A DNA stretch of 62,735 nt from Thermoproteota archaeon (GTDB taxonomy: Archaea; Korarchaeota; Korarchaeia; Korarchaeales; Korarchaeaceae), in the NCBI GenBank assembly GCA_027078475.1, contig JALWYH010000058.1, forward strand, positions 1-62,735, read 5' to 3'. The number at the start of each line of letters is the position of its first letter. Within the stretch, counting starts at the first letter, position 1. A model generated the notes under the pieces. The model saw nothing but the letters and a program-made list of their open reading frames with translations, had not been told where the DNA came from and ran no database searches. Positions 27,607 through 62,735 of this stretch are shown piece by piece. The position numbers and the translations under genes are program-made.

Positions 27607-28076
27607 GCTTGGTCTTGGAGGCCATGGTTTACCCCACTGAGGATACGGGGAGGGTCATGCGGGCAATGAAGACGATCATTCCTTTCAACGAGGAGGCCGA
27701 CGACGTCGAATTAGAGAGCACGGAATCCAGTAAGTTGATCAGGGTCCGAAAGGAAGGACACGAGGCCCTGATAAAACTGAGAGCATCATTCAGGAATAAC
27801 AGAGTCCTAGACACAGCTCGAAGCCTGCTACTGGGTAGAAGGGGGGAGTTAAGGACCCTAAGGTTCCACAAACAGGCCGCGTACGTGGGGAAAGTAAGGC
27901 TGTGCGATGAGGACGAGATATCTCCCTTGGGAGCGATCTCCCTTTCAATCGAGTATGGGGGAGACGCGATCATACTGGCGGACTGGCTCACCCCAAGAAC
28001 CGAGAAGGGGAGGCCTATCGGAGAAGTCAGCACCCAAATGCTCCTCCACGGGCGGAGGTCATATATCGACGACTAG
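27576..28076 (+). CDS. UPF0201 (COG1931) protein
   Basis: A 166-residue archaeal protein of unknown function with an RNA-binding-like fold. The family hallmark LRFHKQAAYVGKVRLCDEDEISPLG is seen as FHKQAAYVGKV followed by SPLGAISLSIEY, with VYPTEDTGRV at the N-terminus. It resembles the COG1325 protein at 2051 in its N-terminal YPTE segment. Start TTG inside the Toprim gene; its stop overlaps the convergent rnz gene by 18 bases. Confidence 0.82.
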   Translation: MESTEKELSISLVLEAMVYPTEDTGRVMRAMKTIIPFNEEADDVELESTESSKLIRVRKEGHEALIKLRASFRNNRVLDTARSLLLGRRGELRTLRFHKQAAYVGKVRLCDEDEISPLGAISLSIEYGGDAIILADWLTPRTEKGRPIGEVSTQMLLHGRRSYIDD

Positions 28077-28967
28077 GAAATCCCGGGCAGCAATCACCTC
28101 ACCCCCATAGGCTTGTGATGCCTCCTCTTCGAATTTCACTAGGTCCTCCTCCCTATACCTGGCGCTGAAGTGAGTCAGGATCAGCCTCCTCACACCAGCG
28201 GCCTCGGCCACTTGACCGGCCTCAAAGGCGGTGCTGTGTCCGGTGGAAACTGCCCTGTCTCTAAGTTCGTGCAAATAGGTGGCCTCATGGATCAGGACAT
28301 CTGCCTCCCTGGCAGCCCTTATGACAGATTCCGTTGGTCTGGTGTCAGAGGAGTAAACCAAAATGGAGCCTCTTCTTGGGGGCCCCATCACATCCTGAGG
28401 CCTCACAACTCTACCATCAGGCAACTTAACCGAGAATCCCCTCTGAAGTATCCCCCTAAGCACCGGGGGGATGCCTAGCTCATCCGCCCTAACCGGATCA
28501 AATCGGCCCGGGCGATCGGGTTCCCTGATCTTCACCCCATAGGTTTCGAAACCGGCATGATCAACAGGGAAGAACTCTAAGATGAACCTTCCCAGTCTGA
28601 ACGATCTGTATACCTCGATCTCCCTAAACTCCACCCTGAACTGAGGTTTAGATCCGGTTTTCTCCTCGATCCCTCTGATAATGTCCATCAGGGCTCTGGG
28701 GCCGATCACCATGAGATCCGATCCCTTTCTCAGTATGCCCAGCGACTGGATCATCGGCATGAGGCCGAAGAAGTGGTCCCCATGCAGATGGGTCACCACG
28801 ACCTTGTCGACCTTCATCAAGCTCTCTCTTGCCCTTATCATCTGCCTCTGAGTTCCCTCACCGCAATCTAGTAGAATGGAATCCCCTACAGTCTTCACTA
28901 GTATGGCGGGGAGTCCCCTGCTATCAGTCGGGACCGCCGAGCTCGTGCCGAGGAACCTGACTCTCAT
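28059..28967 (-). CDS. rnz: Ribonuclease Z
   Basis: Endonuclease that trims tRNA 3' trailers. Begins with MRVRFLGTSSAVPT; metal ligands HLHGDH are at residues 60-65; YSSDTRPTESV, HEATY and GHSTAFEAGQVAEAAGV follow. 302 aa. ATG overlaps the upstream methyltransferase stop as ATGA. It is the last gene of a transcription unit that begins with tRNA-Thr, whose own 3' end RNase Z would process. Confidence 0.95.
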   Translation of the reverse strand: MRVRFLGTSSAVPTDSRGLPAILVKTVGDSILLDCGEGTQRQMIRARESLMKVDKVVVTHLHGDHFFGLMPMIQSLGILRKGSDLMVIGPRALMDIIRGIEEKTGSKPQFRVEFREIEVYRSFRLGRFILEFFPVDHAGFETYGVKIREPDRPGRFDPVRADELGIPPVLRGILQRGFSVKLPDGRVVRPQDVMGPPRRGSILVYSSDTRPTESVIRAAREADVLIHEATYLHELRDRAVSTGHSTAFEAGQVAEAAGVRRLILTHFSARYREEDLVKFEEEASQAYGGEVIAARDFLVVDI

Positions 28968-30013
28968 TTCAGCCTCGCCACCCATACTCTTCGCGTGAGA
29001 GATCTGTGCTCCCTGACATCGAAGCGCTCCACGACCTCGAACCCGGCCTCGGTGAAGTCAGAAGCTACTAGATGATCCTTAGGAACAGAGATGGCAATCC
29101 ATCCCTCCTTCTTTAAGTAGTCAGGAGCCTTAGCCACGAATTTTCGAGAGAGATCCTCCGGAGTATTCCCAACGGCCACGCTCATCCTCCCATAAGGGGG
29201 ATCAGTGACTATCCTATCTACCTTCTCCTTGAGCTCAAGATTCAGCGCATTTCCGACTAAAAGCTCAAAACCCTCAAGGAATCCATAAGCAATTAGGTTG
29301 TTCTTTGCATCTATAACGAGATTCTCGTTTATATCGGATCCTATGAATCGGGCCCCCACGGACAGCACCTCCAACGCTATGCCTCCAACCCCTAGGAAGG
29401 GGTCCAGCACAATATCACCCTCCCTCGTCCTGGCAAGGTTCACCATGGCCCTGGCTAGAGTCGGCCTCATGGAAGCCGGATGCACGAACGGACGAGCCGC
29501 CACTTCCTTTATCTTGAAGAGAGTCCTATCAACCTCCCTCTCCCTTAGGAAGATCACGAAATAACCAGAGGTCATAATAATCACAACCTCTGACGAGAAG
29601 TCAGATAGATCCACCCTGGACTGGGGATTACCTCTGAGGATCCATGATCCGACCAGCCGCTCTACCTCCATCCTCCTGAAGTTCCTGCAACAGCCTCTAA
29701 CCCTTACCGCTGTAGCCCTGAACCTGCCCCTGAGCCTAGGGGGCTCTCTATCGAAGAGGGCCTTCGGGAATTCTCGAGCATCTAGTACAGCCAATACCCT
29801 ACCTATACTTCTAGTGTAGGCCAGCCTTGAGGCCAGATAATCCATCAAACGATTCGGTAACTCATCTATCTCCAAAATGAGTAGAGAATCGAGATCCAAT
29901 TTGGTCTTGAATCCTGTACCGGAGGCTTCAAGGACGGCCCTCACCTCGGCCTTGGGGAGGAGCGGGTGCTCTCCCGAGAGGTGAAATGCCACCTCCAAGT
30001 GGTGTCTCTTCAT
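28964..30013 (-). CDS. tRNA (guanine-10-N2)-methyltransferase, Trm-G10/Trm11 type
   Basis: Makes m2G or m2,2G at position 10 of tRNA. N-terminal ferredoxin-like/THUMP region (up to about residue 165) is followed by a Rossmann methyltransferase with DPFLGVGGIALE near 205 and the catalytic TDPPYG near 270. 349 aa. ATG at 30013 overlaps the NOG1-like stop by 4 bases. Context with RNase Z and a tRNA gene supports a tRNA substrate. Confidence 0.9.
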   Translation of the reverse strand: MKRHHLEVAFHLSGEHPLLPKAEVRAVLEASGTGFKTKLDLDSLLILEIDELPNRLMDYLASRLAYTRSIGRVLAVLDAREFPKALFDREPPRLRGRFRATAVRVRGCCRNFRRMEVERLVGSWILRGNPQSRVDLSDFSSEVVIIMTSGYFVIFLREREVDRTLFKIKEVAARPFVHPASMRPTLARAMVNLARTREGDIVLDPFLGVGGIALEVLSVGARFIGSDINENLVIDAKNNLIAYGFLEGFELLVGNALNLELKEKVDRIVTDPPYGRMSVAVGNTPEDLSRKFVAKAPDYLKKEGWIAISVPKDHLVASDFTEAGFEVVERFDVREHRSLTRRVWVARLK

Positions 30014-31035
30014 TCCCGCCCCAGCTCCCTCCTTATCACCTCAATGAGATCCCCGATTCCATAACCCCTCTCCGCTGAGACCTCAATGAAGTTGAGCTTC
30101 TCTTTCCTCAGGAAAGAACGAGTCTCTGAGAAGCGGTCGCCGTAGTCCCTTGCGAGATCTGTCTTGTTAACCACTACCACGATCCTCTCCCCGAACCTTT
30201 CCCTGATCTCCCTTAGCAGGGATATCTGCTCCCCGAGAGTGTAGCCGCACGTCTCGCTGGGATCCATCACGAACAGTATGAGGCCACCGAGGTGTCTCAG
30301 GGCGACCACAGCTTGCATTTCTATCCTGTTCCTCTCCGACAGGGGCCTGTCCAAGAGACCGGGGGTATCGACGAACTGAACCCTCCCCAGCCCCTTTAGC
30401 TCCCTGTGGCCCATCACTAACCCTCTGGTAGTGAAGGGATAGGGGGCAATCTCAGGCTCCTTCGTGGTGAGTCTGGAGAGCAGCGTGCTCTTCCCGGTAT
30501 TGGGCATCCCTGCTATTATCACCGTGGGCATGGTTAGATCGATGTCGGGAAGTTCCTTCAAGGCAGGTACAGCGTTCCTCAGGAAGTCCAACTCCGGCCC
30601 CACCCTCTTGAGCACGGAGGAGATCCTTCCCAACACTTCCCTTCTCAGGGCCAATATCCTGTTAGGATCTTCAGCCCTCCTCATCCTAGCTATGTATAGC
30701 CTAGAGATCCTAAATATGGTCCGGGAAGCCCATTTCACCGCCCCAAGGGAATGTCTCATCCTGTCTGAATCGATCAGCACTTCTAGGAGCTCCCTGTAGA
30801 AAGGATCCAGCCTTTCAATGCTGGGAAAGGACTTCACAATCTTGTCCAGCCTACTAATTATCGTGTCCGATACCGTTTGAATTCTGGATATTTCTCGAGA
30901 TCTGTAGATAGAAGTCTTATCTCCTCGCCTAGGGACAGGTCTGGGCTTCTTAAAAGCCCTCCTGAAAGCGATATCTAGGAGCTCATCAACGCCAATAGGA
31001 GTCGACGCCCTCTTGAAGGGATTGGGCAATTCCAT
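30010..31035 (-). CDS. NOG1-like GTPase (Obg family)
   Basis: Archaeal relative of the nucleolar GTPase NOG1, which takes part in 60S assembly. The N-terminal helical NOG1 region (PNPFKRASTPIGVDELLDIAF) covers about 165 residues and precedes the G domain with Walker A GMPNTGKST at 176-184, DTPGLLDRP and VVNKTDLA. 341 aa, without the long C-terminal tail of eukaryotic NOG1. ATG at 31035 overlaps the S2P stop as TGATG; the longer ORF from 31101 would lie inside that gene. Confidence 0.9.
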   Translation of the reverse strand: MELPNPFKRASTPIGVDELLDIAFRRAFKKPRPVPRRGDKTSIYRSREISRIQTVSDTIISRLDKIVKSFPSIERLDPFYRELLEVLIDSDRMRHSLGAVKWASRTIFRISRLYIARMRRAEDPNRILALRREVLGRISSVLKRVGPELDFLRNAVPALKELPDIDLTMPTVIIAGMPNTGKSTLLSRLTTKEPEIAPYPFTTRGLVMGHRELKGLGRVQFVDTPGLLDRPLSERNRIEMQAVVALRHLGGLILFVMDPSETCGYTLGEQISLLREIRERFGERIVVVVNKTDLARDYGDRFSETRSFLRKEKLNFIEVSAERGYGIGDLIEVIRRELGRE

Positions 31036-32171
31036 CAACTCAGGAAAAAGAGCAGGACGTTGTATATCAGCATTAACGCCACCGGCGCCGATATTGCCCA
31101 TGCCAGCTTCCTAGCAACACCTTCATCTCCGAGGTATATGGTCAGCAACTCCGACAGAACAAGACCGCCATCCAAGGGCAGCATAGGCAGAGCATTGAGC
31201 CCAGCCAATCCGAGGTTGAACATGGTGAGGAATCCGAAGAGCTCGATGAGCTGCACCGCCAGATCAGCGGGCATAGGAATCGCGGGATCGAAGTACGGCA
31301 CTCGGGACAGCATGACCCCTAGGAAGGGTTTGCTTGGGTCATCCGGTCTGGAGCCCAGCCTGATCCTGTAGGTCCCTCTATTTGTAATCACATCAACCTC
31401 CTGTCCCGGTCTCAGCCTGTTCAATGCCTCGATCAGGGAACCAAAATCCCTCACCCTGTAACCATCTATCTGCTTTATTACAACTCCCTGAGGCAGAATC
31501 CCGTATGAGGGACCACTCTTTATCACGCTCTGCACATACACCCCTGATGGCCTAGCGGCGCCTGGTATGACCGAGAACCCAGGGAAAATAGCCATAGCTA
31601 TTAGGAGAAATATAAGGAAGGTGACCAAGTTCATGAATATGCCGGCGGAGTAGACCCCCATCCTCTTGATGGGTTCCAGACTCTTCAGCGCATCCTCATC
31701 AGGTTCCACGAACGCTCCCAGTAGGACGAAGAGGATGAAGAAAGCGATCTTCTTTATGGGGATTCCGAAGTACCAGCTAGCGGCGGCATGGCCGAACTCA
31801 TGAACAGCGAGGATGACAAATATTGAGATGAGGAGGGGAGCGGTAACCTCGAAGGTGACCCCAGGGATGACAGGTGCTATCTGGGCTACCTTGGGTCCAA
31901 AGACGGCATCCAGCGTGATCTTGATCAGGAAGACCAGGAACACCACCGAGGAGGATAGCAGAGTTGCAACCCCCACCCTGTAGAGTGGACCGACCAGCCT
32001 GGCCAGAGGGCTTATCACTCCCCTAAAGCTCTCAGGATTGAAGGAAATCTCGAGGTAGAAAATCCCTATTCTAGTCCTATCCTTACCCAAATACCTTCCT
32101 GTAATCAGCCCTACAGCGTAGGCTACTATCCAAAACAATATAAAATTAGTTAAGAATCCTTGGGAAAGCAA
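31035..32171 (-). CDS. Site-2 protease family (M50) membrane metalloprotease
   Basis: Intramembrane zinc protease. HEFGH is at residues 124-128 within a transmembrane helix, and the third ligand motif LPMLPLDGG is near 330-338. A PDZ domain sits between them at about 205-275 (GVVIKQIDGYRVRDFGSLIEALNRLRPG). About six hydrophobic segments. Such enzymes release membrane-bound regulators; the tethered transcription factor at 25956-27098 is a conceivable client, though nothing shows it directly. TTG start six bases after the M20 stop. Confidence 0.9.
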   Translation of the reverse strand: MLSQGFLTNFILFWIVAYAVGLITGRYLGKDRTRIGIFYLEISFNPESFRGVISPLARLVGPLYRVGVATLLSSSVVFLVFLIKITLDAVFGPKVAQIAPVIPGVTFEVTAPLLISIFVILAVHEFGHAAASWYFGIPIKKIAFFILFVLLGAFVEPDEDALKSLEPIKRMGVYSAGIFMNLVTFLIFLLIAMAIFPGFSVIPGAARPSGVYVQSVIKSGPSYGILPQGVVIKQIDGYRVRDFGSLIEALNRLRPGQEVDVITNRGTYRIRLGSRPDDPSKPFLGVMLSRVPYFDPAIPMPADLAVQLIELFGFLTMFNLGLAGLNALPMLPLDGGLVLSELLTIYLGDEGVARKLAWAISAPVALMLIYNVLLFFLS

Positions 32172-32177
32172 GGGAGA

Positions 32178-33287
32178 TCAACCCTTCAGGAGGTGAGCCA
32201 GTAGCTCGGCCATCCCGTACACGGAAGGAAGGTTAACGTACTCGTCCGCCGAGTGGTGGTTTCCTCCCTCGGGTCCCAGTATCACGGGCTTGATCCCAGC
32301 CATCTTGTACAGATAATTCGCGTCCGAGACCGTCCTATAGACGGCGGTCTCCAGTTCATGACCCAAGACCTCAGCAGCCTTCTCCTGAATTCTCTTGATG
32401 AAGTCATCATCCTCAGGCAGCTCATAGGGCTCCATGAATGGAGTTGGTCTCTTCATGAGGGATATCTTGATCTTAGCCCTGAGCTCAGGGGTCTTCCTCA
32501 GATGATCCATGAACTTCTTCCTTATGACCCCAGGATCGTTCCCCGGCGGATAGTGTCTGTCCAAGCGGACGAGACACCTGTCTGGATGAGCCATTACCAG
32601 TTCAGGGGACTTTATGCTCAGGGGAGCCACGCTACCTCCTATTCCATCAACCTTAGGCAGGTCCACGGCCCACAATATCACCTTGGCCGCCTCTATCACA
32701 GCGTTTATCCCAGCCTCCTCCGTCCCGGGAGCCGCTAGGCCCCTGACATCGACATCGAACACAAACCTCCCGAAGGCCCCCCTGAACAGTCTCATGTTGG
32801 TGGGTCCGGCCACCACGGCTTCACTCACCTTGGGCAGTATGCCGCTCTTCAACAACTCATAAGTTCCCCTGCTAAATCCCTCGGCATCGCATACAGCAGC
32901 CAGGACGACCCCCCTACTGTCCTGCCACTTGGATGCCGTTATGAAGGCCTCCATCATCGCGGCGAGCATGCTCTTATCGTCGAAAGCCCCAAGACCGTAC
33001 AGCTTATCACCCTCAAGCTCCCCCCATGGGTTCTTGGTCCAATTGGAGTATATCTCGAAGGTATCGGTGTGGGCAAGGAGCAGCAGATTGTCCCTCTCCT
33101 TCAGGTGGAGTGTGGCCACCACATTACCGGCGCACTCCCTGACTGGCTGATGGACGACCTTGTCCGCGTACCTTGATAGGGCATCTGTTATGTAGTAGAC
33201 AGCTTCGCCCTCCCTGCCCCTTAGGCTCCTTATGCCCACTAGGTCTATCAGTAGGTCGCGTACTCTATCTTGGTCAATTAGCCCCAT
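32178..33287 (-). CDS. M20 family metallopeptidase (ArgE/DapE/carboxypeptidase type)
   Basis: Di-zinc peptidase or deacylase. Metal-binding LLAHTDTFEIY (first ligand His), a GLGAFDDKSMLA motif with the bridging Asp, and a C-terminal EGGNHHSADEYVNL ligand motif are present. The usual catalytic Glu pair is less canonical (CDAEGF). The substrate cannot be read from sequence. 369 aa; starts 10 bases after psmB, consistent with coupling of peptide breakdown to proteasome output. Confidence 0.85.
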   Translation of the reverse strand: MGLIDQDRVRDLLIDLVGIRSLRGREGEAVYYITDALSRYADKVVHQPVRECAGNVVATLHLKERDNLLLLAHTDTFEIYSNWTKNPWGELEGDKLYGLGAFDDKSMLAAMMEAFITASKWQDSRGVVLAAVCDAEGFSRGTYELLKSGILPKVSEAVVAGPTNMRLFRGAFGRFVFDVDVRGLAAPGTEEAGINAVIEAAKVILWAVDLPKVDGIGGSVAPLSIKSPELVMAHPDRCLVRLDRHYPPGNDPGVIRKKFMDHLRKTPELRAKIKISLMKRPTPFMEPYELPEDDDFIKRIQEKAAEVLGHELETAVYRTVSDANYLYKMAGIKPVILGPEGGNHHSADEYVNLPSVYGMAELLAHLLKG

Positions 33288-33297
33288 TCGACCCCCC

Positions 33298-33894
33298 TCA
33301 CGCCGACTTCAGGGGGATGTAGAGCTGCCTGGTGCCTGCCTCTGAGATGACAACGAGGTCTATGCCATCACCGGACAAGGCATCCCTGGATATCGCCTCT
33401 CTCATAGCCTTCTCCGCCAGTGACAGGGCTGCCTCCTCATTCAGATCATCTCTGTACTCCCTCTCGAGAATTCCGGTGGCTACTTGGGCTCCCGTCCCCA
33501 CTGCAGCGAATTTCTCCTCCATAAGCCCTCCGGCCGGATCCAGCACGAGAATCTTGGGCTCCTCACCCTCCAAACCCCCTACTATCAGCTCAGCGTAGTA
33601 TATCCCCCTGAATCTCCCTTGGTAGAGCAGCAGGGAGAGCAACTTGGCCACGTTGGTAGGAGTGGCTTTCTTGTTCAGATCCAACTCATACAGAGTCATG
33701 TTGAACTTTACAACGTCGACCAACTCTTGGAAATCTCCTGGGAGTCCCGCCGTGGATATACCCACCTTCTCGTTGATCAAAAACACCTTCTTGGCGGACT
33801 TGCTTAGGACAAACGTGCCGTAAGATACTCTCCTGTCCGCCGCGAGGACGACGCCGCCCTTGAACCTCAGGCCCAGAGCTGTAGCCAGAACCAC
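33298..33894 (-). CDS. psmB: Proteasome beta subunit, short N-terminus type
   Basis: Inner-ring 20S proteasome subunit: GGVVLAADRRVSYGTFVLSK, KVGISTAGLPGDFQELV, GTGAQVATGILEREY and SGDGIDLVVI. Active beta subunits carry TTTVG at the mature N-terminus; here the equivalent residues read ATALG, so the position aligned with catalytic Thr1 is Ala with Thr next to it. The layout resembles one Sulfolobus paralogue. The GTG at 33894 follows a GAGGGGTG ribosome-binding site; upstream codons run into tRNA-Thr. A second, canonical beta subunit is expected elsewhere. Confidence 0.85.
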   Translation of the reverse strand: MVLATALGLRFKGGVVLAADRRVSYGTFVLSKSAKKVFLINEKVGISTAGLPGDFQELVDVVKFNMTLYELDLNKKATPTNVAKLLSLLLYQGRFRGIYYAELIVGGLEGEEPKILVLDPAGGLMEEKFAAVGTGAQVATGILEREYRDDLNEEAALSLAEKAMREAISRDALSGDGIDLVVISEAGTRQLYIPLKSA

Positions 33895-33918
33895 CGTAAC
33901 ACCCCTCAAATCAAGTGA

Positions 33919-33993
33919 AGCCCCGGGCGGGATTCGAACCCGCGACCTCCGCCTTACCAAGGCGGCGCTCTAACCGAGCTGAGCTACCGGGGC
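33919..33993 (-). tRNA. tRNA-Thr (anticodon GGT)
   Basis: On the minus strand: acceptor GCCCCGG/CCGGGGC with discriminator T, D stem GCTC/GAGC, anticodon stem CCGCC/GGCGG around TTGGTAA (anticodon GGT), T arm GCGGG-TTCGAAT-CCCGC. It decodes ACC and ACU. No intron, no encoded CCA. The psmB GTG lies 24 bases beyond its 3' end with no TATA box between, so tRNA and psmB are probably on one transcript. Confidence 0.95.
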
Positions 33994-34018
33994 CCACCTC
34001 AAACTGTATCCAGATCTC

Positions 34019-34027
34019 TTTATAAAT
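34019..34027 (-). promoter_or_regulatory. TATA box for tRNA-Thr and the psmB operon
   Basis: ATTTATAAA on the minus strand lies about 29 bp from the tRNA-Thr 5' end. It is the only convincing TATA element found upstream of psmB and of the downstream M20, S2P, NOG1-like, Trm-G10 and rnz genes. Confidence 0.6.
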
Positions 34028-34028
34028 G

Positions 34029-35696
34029 CTATCCGGGGGCCCTCCCACCCTTCAGCAGGAGGACTAGAGAGAGGACGATGAGCAGAAGGATCGCCACGTA
34101 GGGGAGGTAGACCAATATGTCAGACCACCTTCTTAACTCTATCTCGATCTTCATTCCCCTCTTGAAATAACCACTGAAGCTAGAGGAGAGGGTGGATACG
34201 TATAGGAAGAGGCCGTCATCTTCAGGGTACCACTTGGAGTACACGGATGGGAGATCTACCTTTATGCGGGGTTTCAGGCCCTCAATAGGTAATCTTAGGT
34301 AGATTACGGGAGTAGTCCTAGTGACGATCACCTCATAAGAATCGCCACTGACTTCTATCAGGTCATAAGGAACTCTCCCAGAGCGCAAGCCCAAGGTAGG
34401 ATCACCCAAAAGCACCTCATAAACTGCATCCAAGGGATCCATACCATTCTCGAGGGCGTCCTTGATGTGGAGGTTATTCACGGCCATCACCGACTCTCCG
34501 AGGGTATTACCAGTCAGAGCCATCATTAGCACGAGATCAGGATAGGAGGTACCGGCTTCAGATCCAATGCTGAACTCGACCTTCGTGGCCCCAATGTAGG
34601 CGAAGGATCCCGCATCCAAGAAGGAGTAGGCCACGGATTCCTCGGGATCCCTTAGATCTTGGAACCTGAGTGTATCACATGACAGGGTCATCACCACCGT
34701 CCCGAGCGGTTTGGAGGACTTGACGATTGAGGGAGTCAGCACCACGTTTCCATCCGTCCTGAGAGCCATTAGATATGGGTTCCCGTGGAGGTTGAGGTAG
34801 AGCACCCCGCCCTTAGAATTACTTAAAATTTTGGAGACCTCTTTATAAGTTAAATTAGAGTATTTGACATCTGGATGGAATATTTTGGAGTCCAGTCCGT
34901 AGAGAGAGCCCACGAACTCTACTTTCCTAGCAAGCGGCAGATCCTCCAGCAGCGAGATACCCCTGAGGTTCTTCATCATACCGGCCGATACTGCATCCTT
35001 AGATAGCAGCATAATGAACGGCGATGCTATGCTATCTCCAGTCAGGATGCCCAGCGATGAATCAAGGTACGGGTCCTCGTCCAGTCTAGTTAGCATCGTC
35101 ACCGAATCCGAGTACCTACGATAATTCTCGGATGTCAGAGGCTGGGTGACTAGCATAACGAACCTGACTCCCCTCAAGTATGGCTTGAGAGGGGGGGTGA
35201 TTGAATCCACGTCTAGCAGCTTGGCTTTCCTCAGGAACGCGGTGTAAGCTGCTAAGAGAGAGTAAACTGGTCCATCTGAGCTGTAGAAGAGCACGGCTGC
35301 ATCACTTCTCTTGGAAGAGAGCTCCTTTATTACAGATTCAATATTCTCGGATATCTTCTCCGCGTTATTAATACCCATGGAATGCTCCTTCAAGTAGAGT
35401 AGAATGTAAGCGAGCTCTTGAGGTTCGATGCTAGACGGTAGGGCCCTGTCTACCGACTCCACCTTAGTGGGGAATCCGATCTCATTCAGCAAGCTGGCCG
35501 TGAGCGAGGCATTCCTGGTTAAAACGATCCTCTCATCCGGCCCCATATCCAAAAAGAAGATTGCAGCAGCGCCATAGCTCTGAAAGACGTGTACCGTCGG
35601 TAGGGAGTGCGATGTCGCCGTGGAGATGGTGGACTGAGTGGTCAAGAGCGCGAGCAGGATCGGGAGAAGAGCGGATCTGACCTTAATCACCGCCAC
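34029..35696 (-). CDS. Membrane-anchored extracellular C25-like (gingipain/caspase-fold) protein
   Basis: Architecture: signal peptide at residues 1-27, a long extracellular region and a C-terminal transmembrane helix at about 527-548 with a short basic cytoplasmic tail. The middle shows the peptidase C25 layout: DPYLDSSLGIL near 208-218, YLNLHGNP with candidate catalytic His304, MTLSCDT with candidate Cys340, then DAGSFAYIGAT, NTLGESVM and LLGDPTLGL. The His-Cys spacing of 36 is close to gingipains. GTG start overlaps the 112-aa gene by 14 bases. It could be an active protease or a C25-like protein with another role. Confidence 0.7.
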   Translation of the reverse strand: MAVIKVRSALLPILLALLTTQSTISTATSHSLPTVHVFQSYGAAAIFFLDMGPDERIVLTRNASLTASLLNEIGFPTKVESVDRALPSSIEPQELAYILLYLKEHSMGINNAEKISENIESVIKELSSKRSDAAVLFYSSDGPVYSLLAAYTAFLRKAKLLDVDSITPPLKPYLRGVRFVMLVTQPLTSENYRRYSDSVTMLTRLDEDPYLDSSLGILTGDSIASPFIMLLSKDAVSAGMMKNLRGISLLEDLPLARKVEFVGSLYGLDSKIFHPDVKYSNLTYKEVSKILSNSKGGVLYLNLHGNPYLMALRTDGNVVLTPSIVKSSKPLGTVVMTLSCDTLRFQDLRDPEESVAYSFLDAGSFAYIGATKVEFSIGSEAGTSYPDLVLMMALTGNTLGESVMAVNNLHIKDALENGMDPLDAVYEVLLGDPTLGLRSGRVPYDLIEVSGDSYEVIVTRTTPVIYLRLPIEGLKPRIKVDLPSVYSKWYPEDDGLFLYVSTLSSSFSGYFKRGMKIEIELRRWSDILVYLPYVAILLLIVLSLVLLLKGGRAPG

Positions 35697-36021
35697 CGCA
35701 CTCCTTTTTGAACAACACCTGATACTGGAGGTTAGTGAACCCGTATCTCTGGAGAACCCTCTCCAGATCTGAAGAGATCCTACACGGAACCGAGCAGACG
35801 GGCGTCCTCTTCACATAATACGCGATGTACTTCCACTCCTGATCCTCATCATCGAGAAGAGTCGCCAGAGGCCTGAGCTTCCTCTTGGATGATAGTATGG
35901 ACTTCACGAATGTGAGCGTCAGATCAACCGCTAGGTCAAGCGATTTATCCGATGTGAACCCTTCCCTCCTAGCCATCTCCCTCACAGCAGCAGAGATCCT
36001 CTTCTCCAGCTCATCGTCCAA
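35683..36021 (-). CDS. Unknown 112-aa protein coupled to the C25-like gene
   Basis: Not recognised. Predicted soluble, with an acidic/basic helical N-terminal half (MDDELEKRISAAVREMARREG) and a C-terminal half containing two close cysteines (VCSVPC) and a third near the end (KKECGGGD). No signal peptide or membrane segment. TTG start preceded by GGGTG, 24 bases downstream of tRNA-Gly. Its stop lies inside the start region of the C25-like gene, so translation of the two is linked. It may be a cytoplasmic partner of that protein, but this rests on gene position only. Confidence 0.6.
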   Translation of the reverse strand: MDDELEKRISAAVREMARREGFTSDKSLDLAVDLTLTFVKSILSSKRKLRPLATLLDDEDQEWKYIAYYVKRTPVCSVPCRISSDLERVLQRYGFTNLQYQVLFKKECGGGD

Positions 36022-36045
36022 GATGCGACACCCGCTTGAGAATGG

Positions 36046-36119
36046 TGCGGCCGCCGGGATTTGAACCCGGGTCTCCGGCTTGGAGGGCCGGCATCCTGTC
36101 CAGGCTAGACTACGGCCGC
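36046..36119 (-). tRNA. tRNA-Gly (anticodon TCC)
   Basis: On the minus strand: acceptor GCGGCCG/CGGCCGC with discriminator A, anticodon stem CCGGC/GCCGG around CCTCCAA (anticodon TCC), T loop TTCAAAT. It decodes GGA and GGG. No intron, no CCA. The 112-aa gene begins 24 bases after its 3' end, the same spacer length as between tRNA-Thr and psmB. Confidence 0.95.
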
Positions 36120-36143: not shown

Positions 36144-36152
36144 TCTAAAAAC
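36144..36152 (-). promoter_or_regulatory. TATA box for tRNA-Gly and the C25-like unit
   Basis: GTTTTTAGA on the minus strand is centred about 29 bp upstream of the tRNA-Gly 5' end. No second TATA element is seen between the tRNA and the downstream genes. Confidence 0.5.
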
Positions 36153-36188
36153 TTTAAGCCCGGAAAGAACCCTCCTTGAATTACGATC

Positions 36189-62654: not shown

Positions 62655-62735
62655 GCGGGGGTGGCCGAGCAAGGACCAAGGCGGCGGACTTAAGATCCGC
62701 TGGGCGTCAGGCCCGCGTGGGTTCGAATCCCACCC
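62655..62735 (+). tRNA. tRNA-Leu (anticodon TAA), cut by the window end
   Basis: Acceptor 5' strand GCGGGGG, anticodon stem GCGGA/TCCGC around CTTAAGA (anticodon TAA), variable arm and T arm GTGGG-TTCGAAT-CCCAC as in the tRNA-Leu at 25861. Sequence ends two bases into the 3' acceptor strand. It decodes UUA (and UUG by wobble). Confidence 0.92.

Follow-up and report, generated by a model that had tools for sequence, protein, structure and literature searches.

Protein operons without a promoter of their own, each headed by a tRNA gene, probably receive their mRNAs by tRNA punctuation, in which the cut at the tRNA 3' end would turn the tRNA trailer into the mRNA leader. We describe two such units in the window, a 62,735-nucleotide (nt) stretch of contig JALWYH010000058.1 (assembly GCA_027078475.1) from a heat-loving Thermoproteota archaeon of the same genus as Ca. 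Korarchaeum cryptofilum. In one unit, tRNA-Thr(GGT) precedes psmB, which encodes a proteasome beta subunit. In the other, tRNA-Gly(TCC) precedes a gene for a protein of 112 amino acids (aa). The gene order, the spacing, the lack of a recognisable promoter, the conservation and the exchange of tRNA identity at the heads of such units are directly observed.

All features of both units lie on the reverse strand. The tRNA-Thr gene (33919-33993; Rfam, ARAGORN) ends with discriminator T at 33919 and encodes no CCA; the next three bases are TCA, and the 24-nt trailer length stands. The psmB gene (33298-33894) begins with the GTG at 33894 after a 24-nt spacer (33895-33918), a distance given in the initial annotation and on which the Rfam position and the sequence agree. 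This spacer is predicted to be both the tRNA-Thr trailer and the psmB leader, and its only conserved block is the psmB Shine-Dalgarno (SD) site GAGGGGTG (33900-33907). The tRNase Z cut is predicted between 33919 and 33918, which would make 33918 the 5' end of the psmB mRNA.

The tRNA-Gly gene (36046-36119; Rfam, ARAGORN) has discriminator A at 36046, followed by a genome-encoded CCA (36043-36045) that is shared by 10 of the 11 genus members in which the linkage is tight. The 24 nt that had been counted to the TTG start of the 112-aa gene (35683-36021) at 36021 hold from the discriminator but not for the trailer itself. Where CCA is encoded, archaeal RNase Z cuts directly behind it (PMC7479834); because tRNA-Gly encodes CCA, the real trailer is 21 nt long (36022-36042), and so is the predicted leader. 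The cut is predicted between 36043 and 36042, and the 112-aa mRNA would start at 36042. The spacer carries the SD site GGGTG (36029-36033), and the gene start is supported by the closest relatives, which have kept a TTG in roughly this position. The exact recurrence of 24 nt is a coincidence and was rejected as a signal, since psmB spacers range from 23 to 28 nt and those of tight 112-aa genes from 21 to 27 nt within the genus.

Where would transcription of these genes begin? A motif search in 86 tRNA upstream regions from the window genome and K. cryptofilum yields a B recognition element (BRE)/TATA motif with consensus AAGGTTTATATA, which starts 32-41 nt before the tRNA and from which a weight matrix was learned. 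By this matrix, the elements AGCATTTATAAA (34019-34030; 10.8 bits) upstream of tRNA-Thr and AAAGTTTTTAGA (36144-36155; 11.0 bits) upstream of tRNA-Gly are the only TATA boxes, as the initial annotation had stated, and the spacers score low. The former, the putative promoter of the whole psmB unit, has a TATA core that aligns across the genus with scores of 7.1-10.8 bits. The 3' half of tRNA-Thr together with the spacer reaches a best TATA/BRE score of -2.4, and across the 16 genus genomes no TATA-like element in the tRNA-Thr T-arm plus psmB spacer exceeds 4.7 bits, most scores being negative. Each spacer holds an SD site and little else, without a recognisable promoter, which agrees with the earlier description. 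In both units, tRNA and protein gene share a strand, are separated by spacers with too little room for a promoter (24 nt; 21/24 nt) and show low TATA scores in between. Folding of tRNA-Thr with the leader, and of the leader alone, gave no unusual structure (z 0.06 and 0.69). We dropped the missing T-run as proof of read-through; the argument is weak, as T-runs are likewise missing after many unlinked tRNAs of this genome.

The tRNA-Thr to psmB linkage is present in 16 of 16 genus genomes with a spacer of 23-28 nt that contains a G-rich, SD-like stretch, and outside the tRNA the aligned region keeps just the TATA core and the SD site. Of 15 genus genomes, 11 have a tight linkage of tRNA-Gly to the 112-aa gene, with 21-27 nt between the discriminator and the start codon. 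In four sister-genus genomes from two genera, the psmB spacer measures 74-350 nt and contains TATA-like elements of 12.8, 10.6, 10.6 and 6.4 bits; a fifth sister genome (G018) has a 69-nt spacer with a weak TATA-like element (3.6). The order tRNA-Gly, 112-aa gene, tRNA-Thr, psmB predates the genus. The linkage sought in relatives was found, and the adjacency is not lost in all close relatives. Tight spacing, a promoterless spacer and genus-wide conservation together give good support to the earlier idea that a single transcript would be cut at the tRNA 3' end.

Linkage of tRNA and protein genes across Korarchaeal genomes

Judged from gene order, tRNA linkage is a genome-wide habit and not a matter of two isolated cases. 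About 10 of the 42 complete tRNA genes in the window genome, roughly a quarter, run into a protein gene. Linkages within 30 nt involve tRNA-Phe, Ile, Lys(TTT), Pro(TGG), Val(TAC), Arg(CCG), Val(GAC), Thr and Gly, and probably also Gln(TTG); in K. cryptofilum, the linked tRNAs are Ile, Val(GAC), Val(TAC), Gln, Thr and Pro(CGG). The window is part of a 1.71-Mb assembly of 136 contigs (98.7% complete), and the survey covers the stretches around its tRNAs. We also applied fixed criteria, namely an open reading frame of at least 60 aa, an SD match of at least 4 bases and a start within ~45 nt of the tRNA; they let in some doubtful cases, such as a loose tRNA-Asn linkage with a T-run, and the counts are approximate. 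Under these criteria, 11/35, 7/35 and 8/33 tRNAs are linked in three Korarchaeum genomes (26/103 in total), against 4/103 in a divergent-strand control from the same genomes (Fisher p = 1.6e-5). A sister genus gives 9/35, and two unrelated archaea give 0/34 and 4/37; single tRNA-headed cases probably exist in other archaea. The tRNAs stand only at the heads of units, each with its own TATA box or a tandem tRNA before it, which departs from the mitochondrial form of tRNA punctuation, with its long polycistronic transcripts in which most protein genes are flanked by tRNAs. A pattern search for T-arm, gap, GGNG and start codon, run on 150 genomes alongside a shifted control, gave too much noise to be of use and was dropped.

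Five linkages span the distance from the species of the window to K. cryptofilum, and the products of tRNA-linked genes include a B12/radical-SAM protein as well as proteins with PIN_9, Mut7-C or PRC-barrel domains. In 16 of 16 genus genomes, tRNA-Ile(GAT) stands before the PIN_9 gene, and the spacer can be as short as 11 nt. In K. cryptofilum, the 11-nt spacer and start codon read UAGGUGAUCCC-AUG, with the SD site starting at nucleotide 2. The same gene is headed by tRNA-Leu(TAA), tRNA-Ser(GGA) or tRNA-Gln(TTG) in other genera and again by tRNA-Ile in one genome of the same class. At this locus, tRNA-Ala often lies before and tRNA-Arg after, and these surroundings are conserved while the junction tRNA is replaced. 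The radical-SAM gene follows tRNA-Val(TAC), and the PRC-barrel gene tRNA-Val, in 15 of the 15 genus genomes that have the respective gene; in G018, they follow tRNA-Leu and tRNA-Leu(CAA), respectively. The PIN, radical-SAM and PRC spacers are too short for a promoter, and the scores of the heads are mostly negative. Given that the same PIN gene carries different tRNA heads, the presence of a tRNA head appears to matter and its identity does not. Such a swap at similar distance is unexpected for an accidental neighbour and is the strongest argument that the head may be useful.

Three further loci are noteworthy. A gene for a PUA-domain protein (L029:1588-2121) closely follows tRNA-Asp and has no obvious start codon here or in K. 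cryptofilum; its true start may be non-standard or differ. Next to tRNA-Arg(GCG) (L021, 581-656) lies a 323-aa frame with a signal-peptide-like start that may overlap the tRNA or its trailer. Finally, the fifth tRNA of the window (62655-62735) is truncated by the window end.

Gene content of the two units

As the initial annotation had proposed, the tRNA-Thr unit ends with rnz, the last member of a six-gene run that begins with psmB. The psmB product matches Pfam PF00227 (Proteasome) with 169.8 bits, far above the cut-off of that family, and falls short of the archaeal beta-subunit equivalog TIGR03634 (206.7 vs a cut-off of 224). Aligned to beta subunits from the PDB, it has Ala (Ala4) in place of the catalytic Thr1 (VVLATALG) and does not qualify as a catalytic beta subunit. 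In the second beta subunit of the genome (L348:179-856), the GTTTVG that forms the processing and active site is intact. The tRNA-linked psmB product is probably a catalytically dead member of the beta ring.

Downstream of psmB lie genes for an M20-family peptidase (32178-33287; PF01546), an M50 site-2-protease-like protein (31035-32171; PF02163), a NOG1-like GTPase (30010-31101; PF17835, PF06858), a tRNA-methyltransferase-like protein of TIGR01177/Trm type (28964-30013; TIGR01177, PF01170) and the tRNase Z encoded by rnz (28059-28985; TIGR02651). The successive intergenic gaps are +10, +6, -67, -4 and -22 nt, and the true start of the NOG1-like gene is probably further downstream than the annotated 31101. 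The methyltransferase-like protein scores 234.7 bits with TIGR01177, under the cut-off of 316.55. The rnz product passes the curated RNase Z cut-offs (TIGR02651, 294.2 vs 292.95; PRK00055.1-3, 282.7 vs 252).

The 112-aa protein has no Pfam or NCBIfam match. Its 15 aligned orthologues define a Korarchaeal family with an invariant Cys76-x3-Cys80 and Trp63. The second gene of the tRNA-Gly unit (34029-35696) overlaps the 112-aa gene and encodes a 555-aa C25-peptidase-like protein (PF01364, 28.4 bits). This gene is matched in 15 of the 16 genus genomes (in the remaining one, the contig ends too early), whereas no sister genus gave a match; the gene thus seems to have been inserted between the 112-aa gene and tRNA-Thr.

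Probable release of mRNAs during tRNA maturation

How would a gene without a promoter be expressed from such a unit? From the sequence, we infer a single transcript, the enzyme that would cut it and the licensing of translation by the cut. RNA polymerase would start at the tRNA promoter and read on into the protein genes. Since 5' extensions of at least 5-10 nt inhibit archaeal RNase Z, whose best substrate is a 5'-mature tRNA (PMC7479834), RNase P would mature the tRNA 5' end first. The archaeal enzyme cuts after the discriminator in CCA-less precursors and after CCA in CCA-containing precursors (PMC7479834); tRNase Z would then cut in the former way at tRNA-Thr and in the latter at tRNA-Gly. 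The trailer freed by the cut (24 and 21 nt here; ~9-28 nt elsewhere) would serve as a minimal leader, barely more than an SD site. This site lies 1-20 nt from the acceptor stem and, therefore, an uncut tRNA would probably hamper binding of the 30S subunit, and cutting would license translation. Moreover, tRNA-Thr(GGT) and tRNA-Gly(TCC) are each the sole copy with that anticodon found in the 98.7%-complete assembly, so that read-through transcripts would have to be cut to supply the tRNA.

Several points weigh against this reading. The tRNA-Gly linkage is loose in 4 of 15 genus genomes, with 81-212 nt in the K. cryptofilum clade. The weight matrix was trained on tRNA promoters, and a weak or unusual promoter could escape detection. 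Transcription may also end at the tRNA and continue into the protein genes in only a fraction of cases. tRNase Z products carry a 5'-monophosphate, which might shorten the life of a released mRNA. Furthermore, differential loss from an ancestral tRNA tandem could yield part of the picture of head exchange.

Accidental adjacency in a compact genome is a somewhat unlikely explanation. It shares the transcript and the cut with tRNA punctuation and differs solely on selection, as tRNA processing would have no functional tie to expression. The genome is indeed compact, the 112-aa linkage varies between subclades and tRNA neighbourhoods are often syntenic; however, the PIN gene keeps a tRNA head through exchanges among Ile, Leu, Ser and Gln, five linkages are shared between the species of the window and K. 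cryptofilum, and few or no tRNAs are linked in the two unrelated archaea. A promoter hidden within the tRNA, with the AT-rich T-loop GGTTCAAATC acting as TATA box and transcription starting in the spacer, is improbable. The tRNA-Gly T-arm TTCAAATC, ~25 nt upstream of the spacer, does score 5.0 bits, but this value lies within the range of shuffled controls and comes with the T-loop itself, being the same in all tRNAs that carry it, whether or not they head a gene; the tRNA-Thr T-arm scores -2.4, and the heads of the PIN, radical-SAM and PRC genes are mostly negative.

There are two further alternatives. The uncut tRNA-mRNA chimera could itself be translated, with tRNA 3' maturation by another route destroying the mRNA and the two products competing. 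Such a scheme is compatible with the sequence but quite improbable, given an SD site as near as 1-2 nt to the discriminator at tRNA-Ile/PIN and an archaeal RNase Z that, as an endonuclease, leaves both products whole (PMC7479834). The initial annotation had also suggested a feedback loop, in which the level of tRNase Z would control its own mRNA through the tRNA-Thr cut. We give this loop very little credence. Although rnz is last in the unit here and, where the contig extends far enough, in most members of the genus, the gene is already in the same cluster in sister genera where the psmB spacer is longer (69-74 nt) and contains TATA-like elements. In the K. cryptofilum clade, psmB is still tRNA-headed but stands apart from rnz, the gap before rnz having grown to hold TATA-like elements of 10.4 (G009), 8.2 (G012) and 6.2 (G011), so that rnz has its own TATA in at least G009 and G012. 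Such a loop is therefore no conserved feature of the tRNA-headed unit, and every other tRNA-headed gene would be equally affected by such control.

We return to tRNA punctuation as the preferred explanation of the two units and put forward, more tentatively, a wider version that we hold possible rather than probable. Korarchaea may run chromosomal tRNA punctuation in which about a fifth to a quarter of the tRNAs would be exchangeable operon heads, the cut would admit ribosomes, and a proteasome subunit and several RNA-processing-like proteins would be tied to tRNA maturation.

Relation to known tRNA-mRNA transcripts

In archaea, tRNA genes are commonly regarded as independent units. If our reading is true, Korarchaea would have an archaeal counterpart of mitochondrial tRNA punctuation, with many mRNAs starting as tRNA trailers. 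This would explain genes that lack a promoter, couple protein output to tRNA output and provide natural test pieces for the use of monophosphorylated leaders of 9-28 nt by archaeal ribosomes. Gene finders and promoter maps would then be liable to misplace the starts of tRNA-headed units. The literature searched, with partial coverage, contained no description of archaeal tRNA-headed operons. The principle that tRNAs act as cutting points that release mRNAs is already known from mitochondria, and single transcripts that join tRNA and mRNA from bacteria and plants.

In Escherichia coli, thrT-tufB forms a tRNA-mRNA transcript. Another bacterial case is secG leuU, given as reference 63 in PMC3985628. 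As in these bacterial transcripts, tRNA and protein gene in Korarchaeum would share a transcript and be separated by tRNA processing. E. coli has few such cases and uses other enzymes, whereas in Korarchaeum about a quarter of the tRNAs are involved, the spacer amounts to a ribosome-binding site and the linkage is genus-wide. Plant dicistronic transcripts likewise unite tRNA and mRNA; they have been proposed as RNA mobility signals and are linked neither to a shared archaeal promoter nor to a minimal leader (PMC8166872). Studies of archaeal tRNase Z on CCA-containing precursors point to the same enzyme and to the cut positions expected for both tRNAs, although that work concerns methanogen enzymes and tRNA precursors rather than tRNA-headed mRNAs (PMC7479834).

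A close parallel comes from animal mitochondria. In their tRNA punctuation model (Ojala et al. 1981, described in PMC6821173), a single transcript has tRNAs in front of or between its protein genes, and excision of these tRNAs by RNase P and RNase Z makes the mRNA ends. Unlike mitochondria, Korarchaeum has a cellular chromosome with many separate tRNA promoters, its tRNAs serve only as unit heads, and the leaders that the predicted cut would release carry SD sites.

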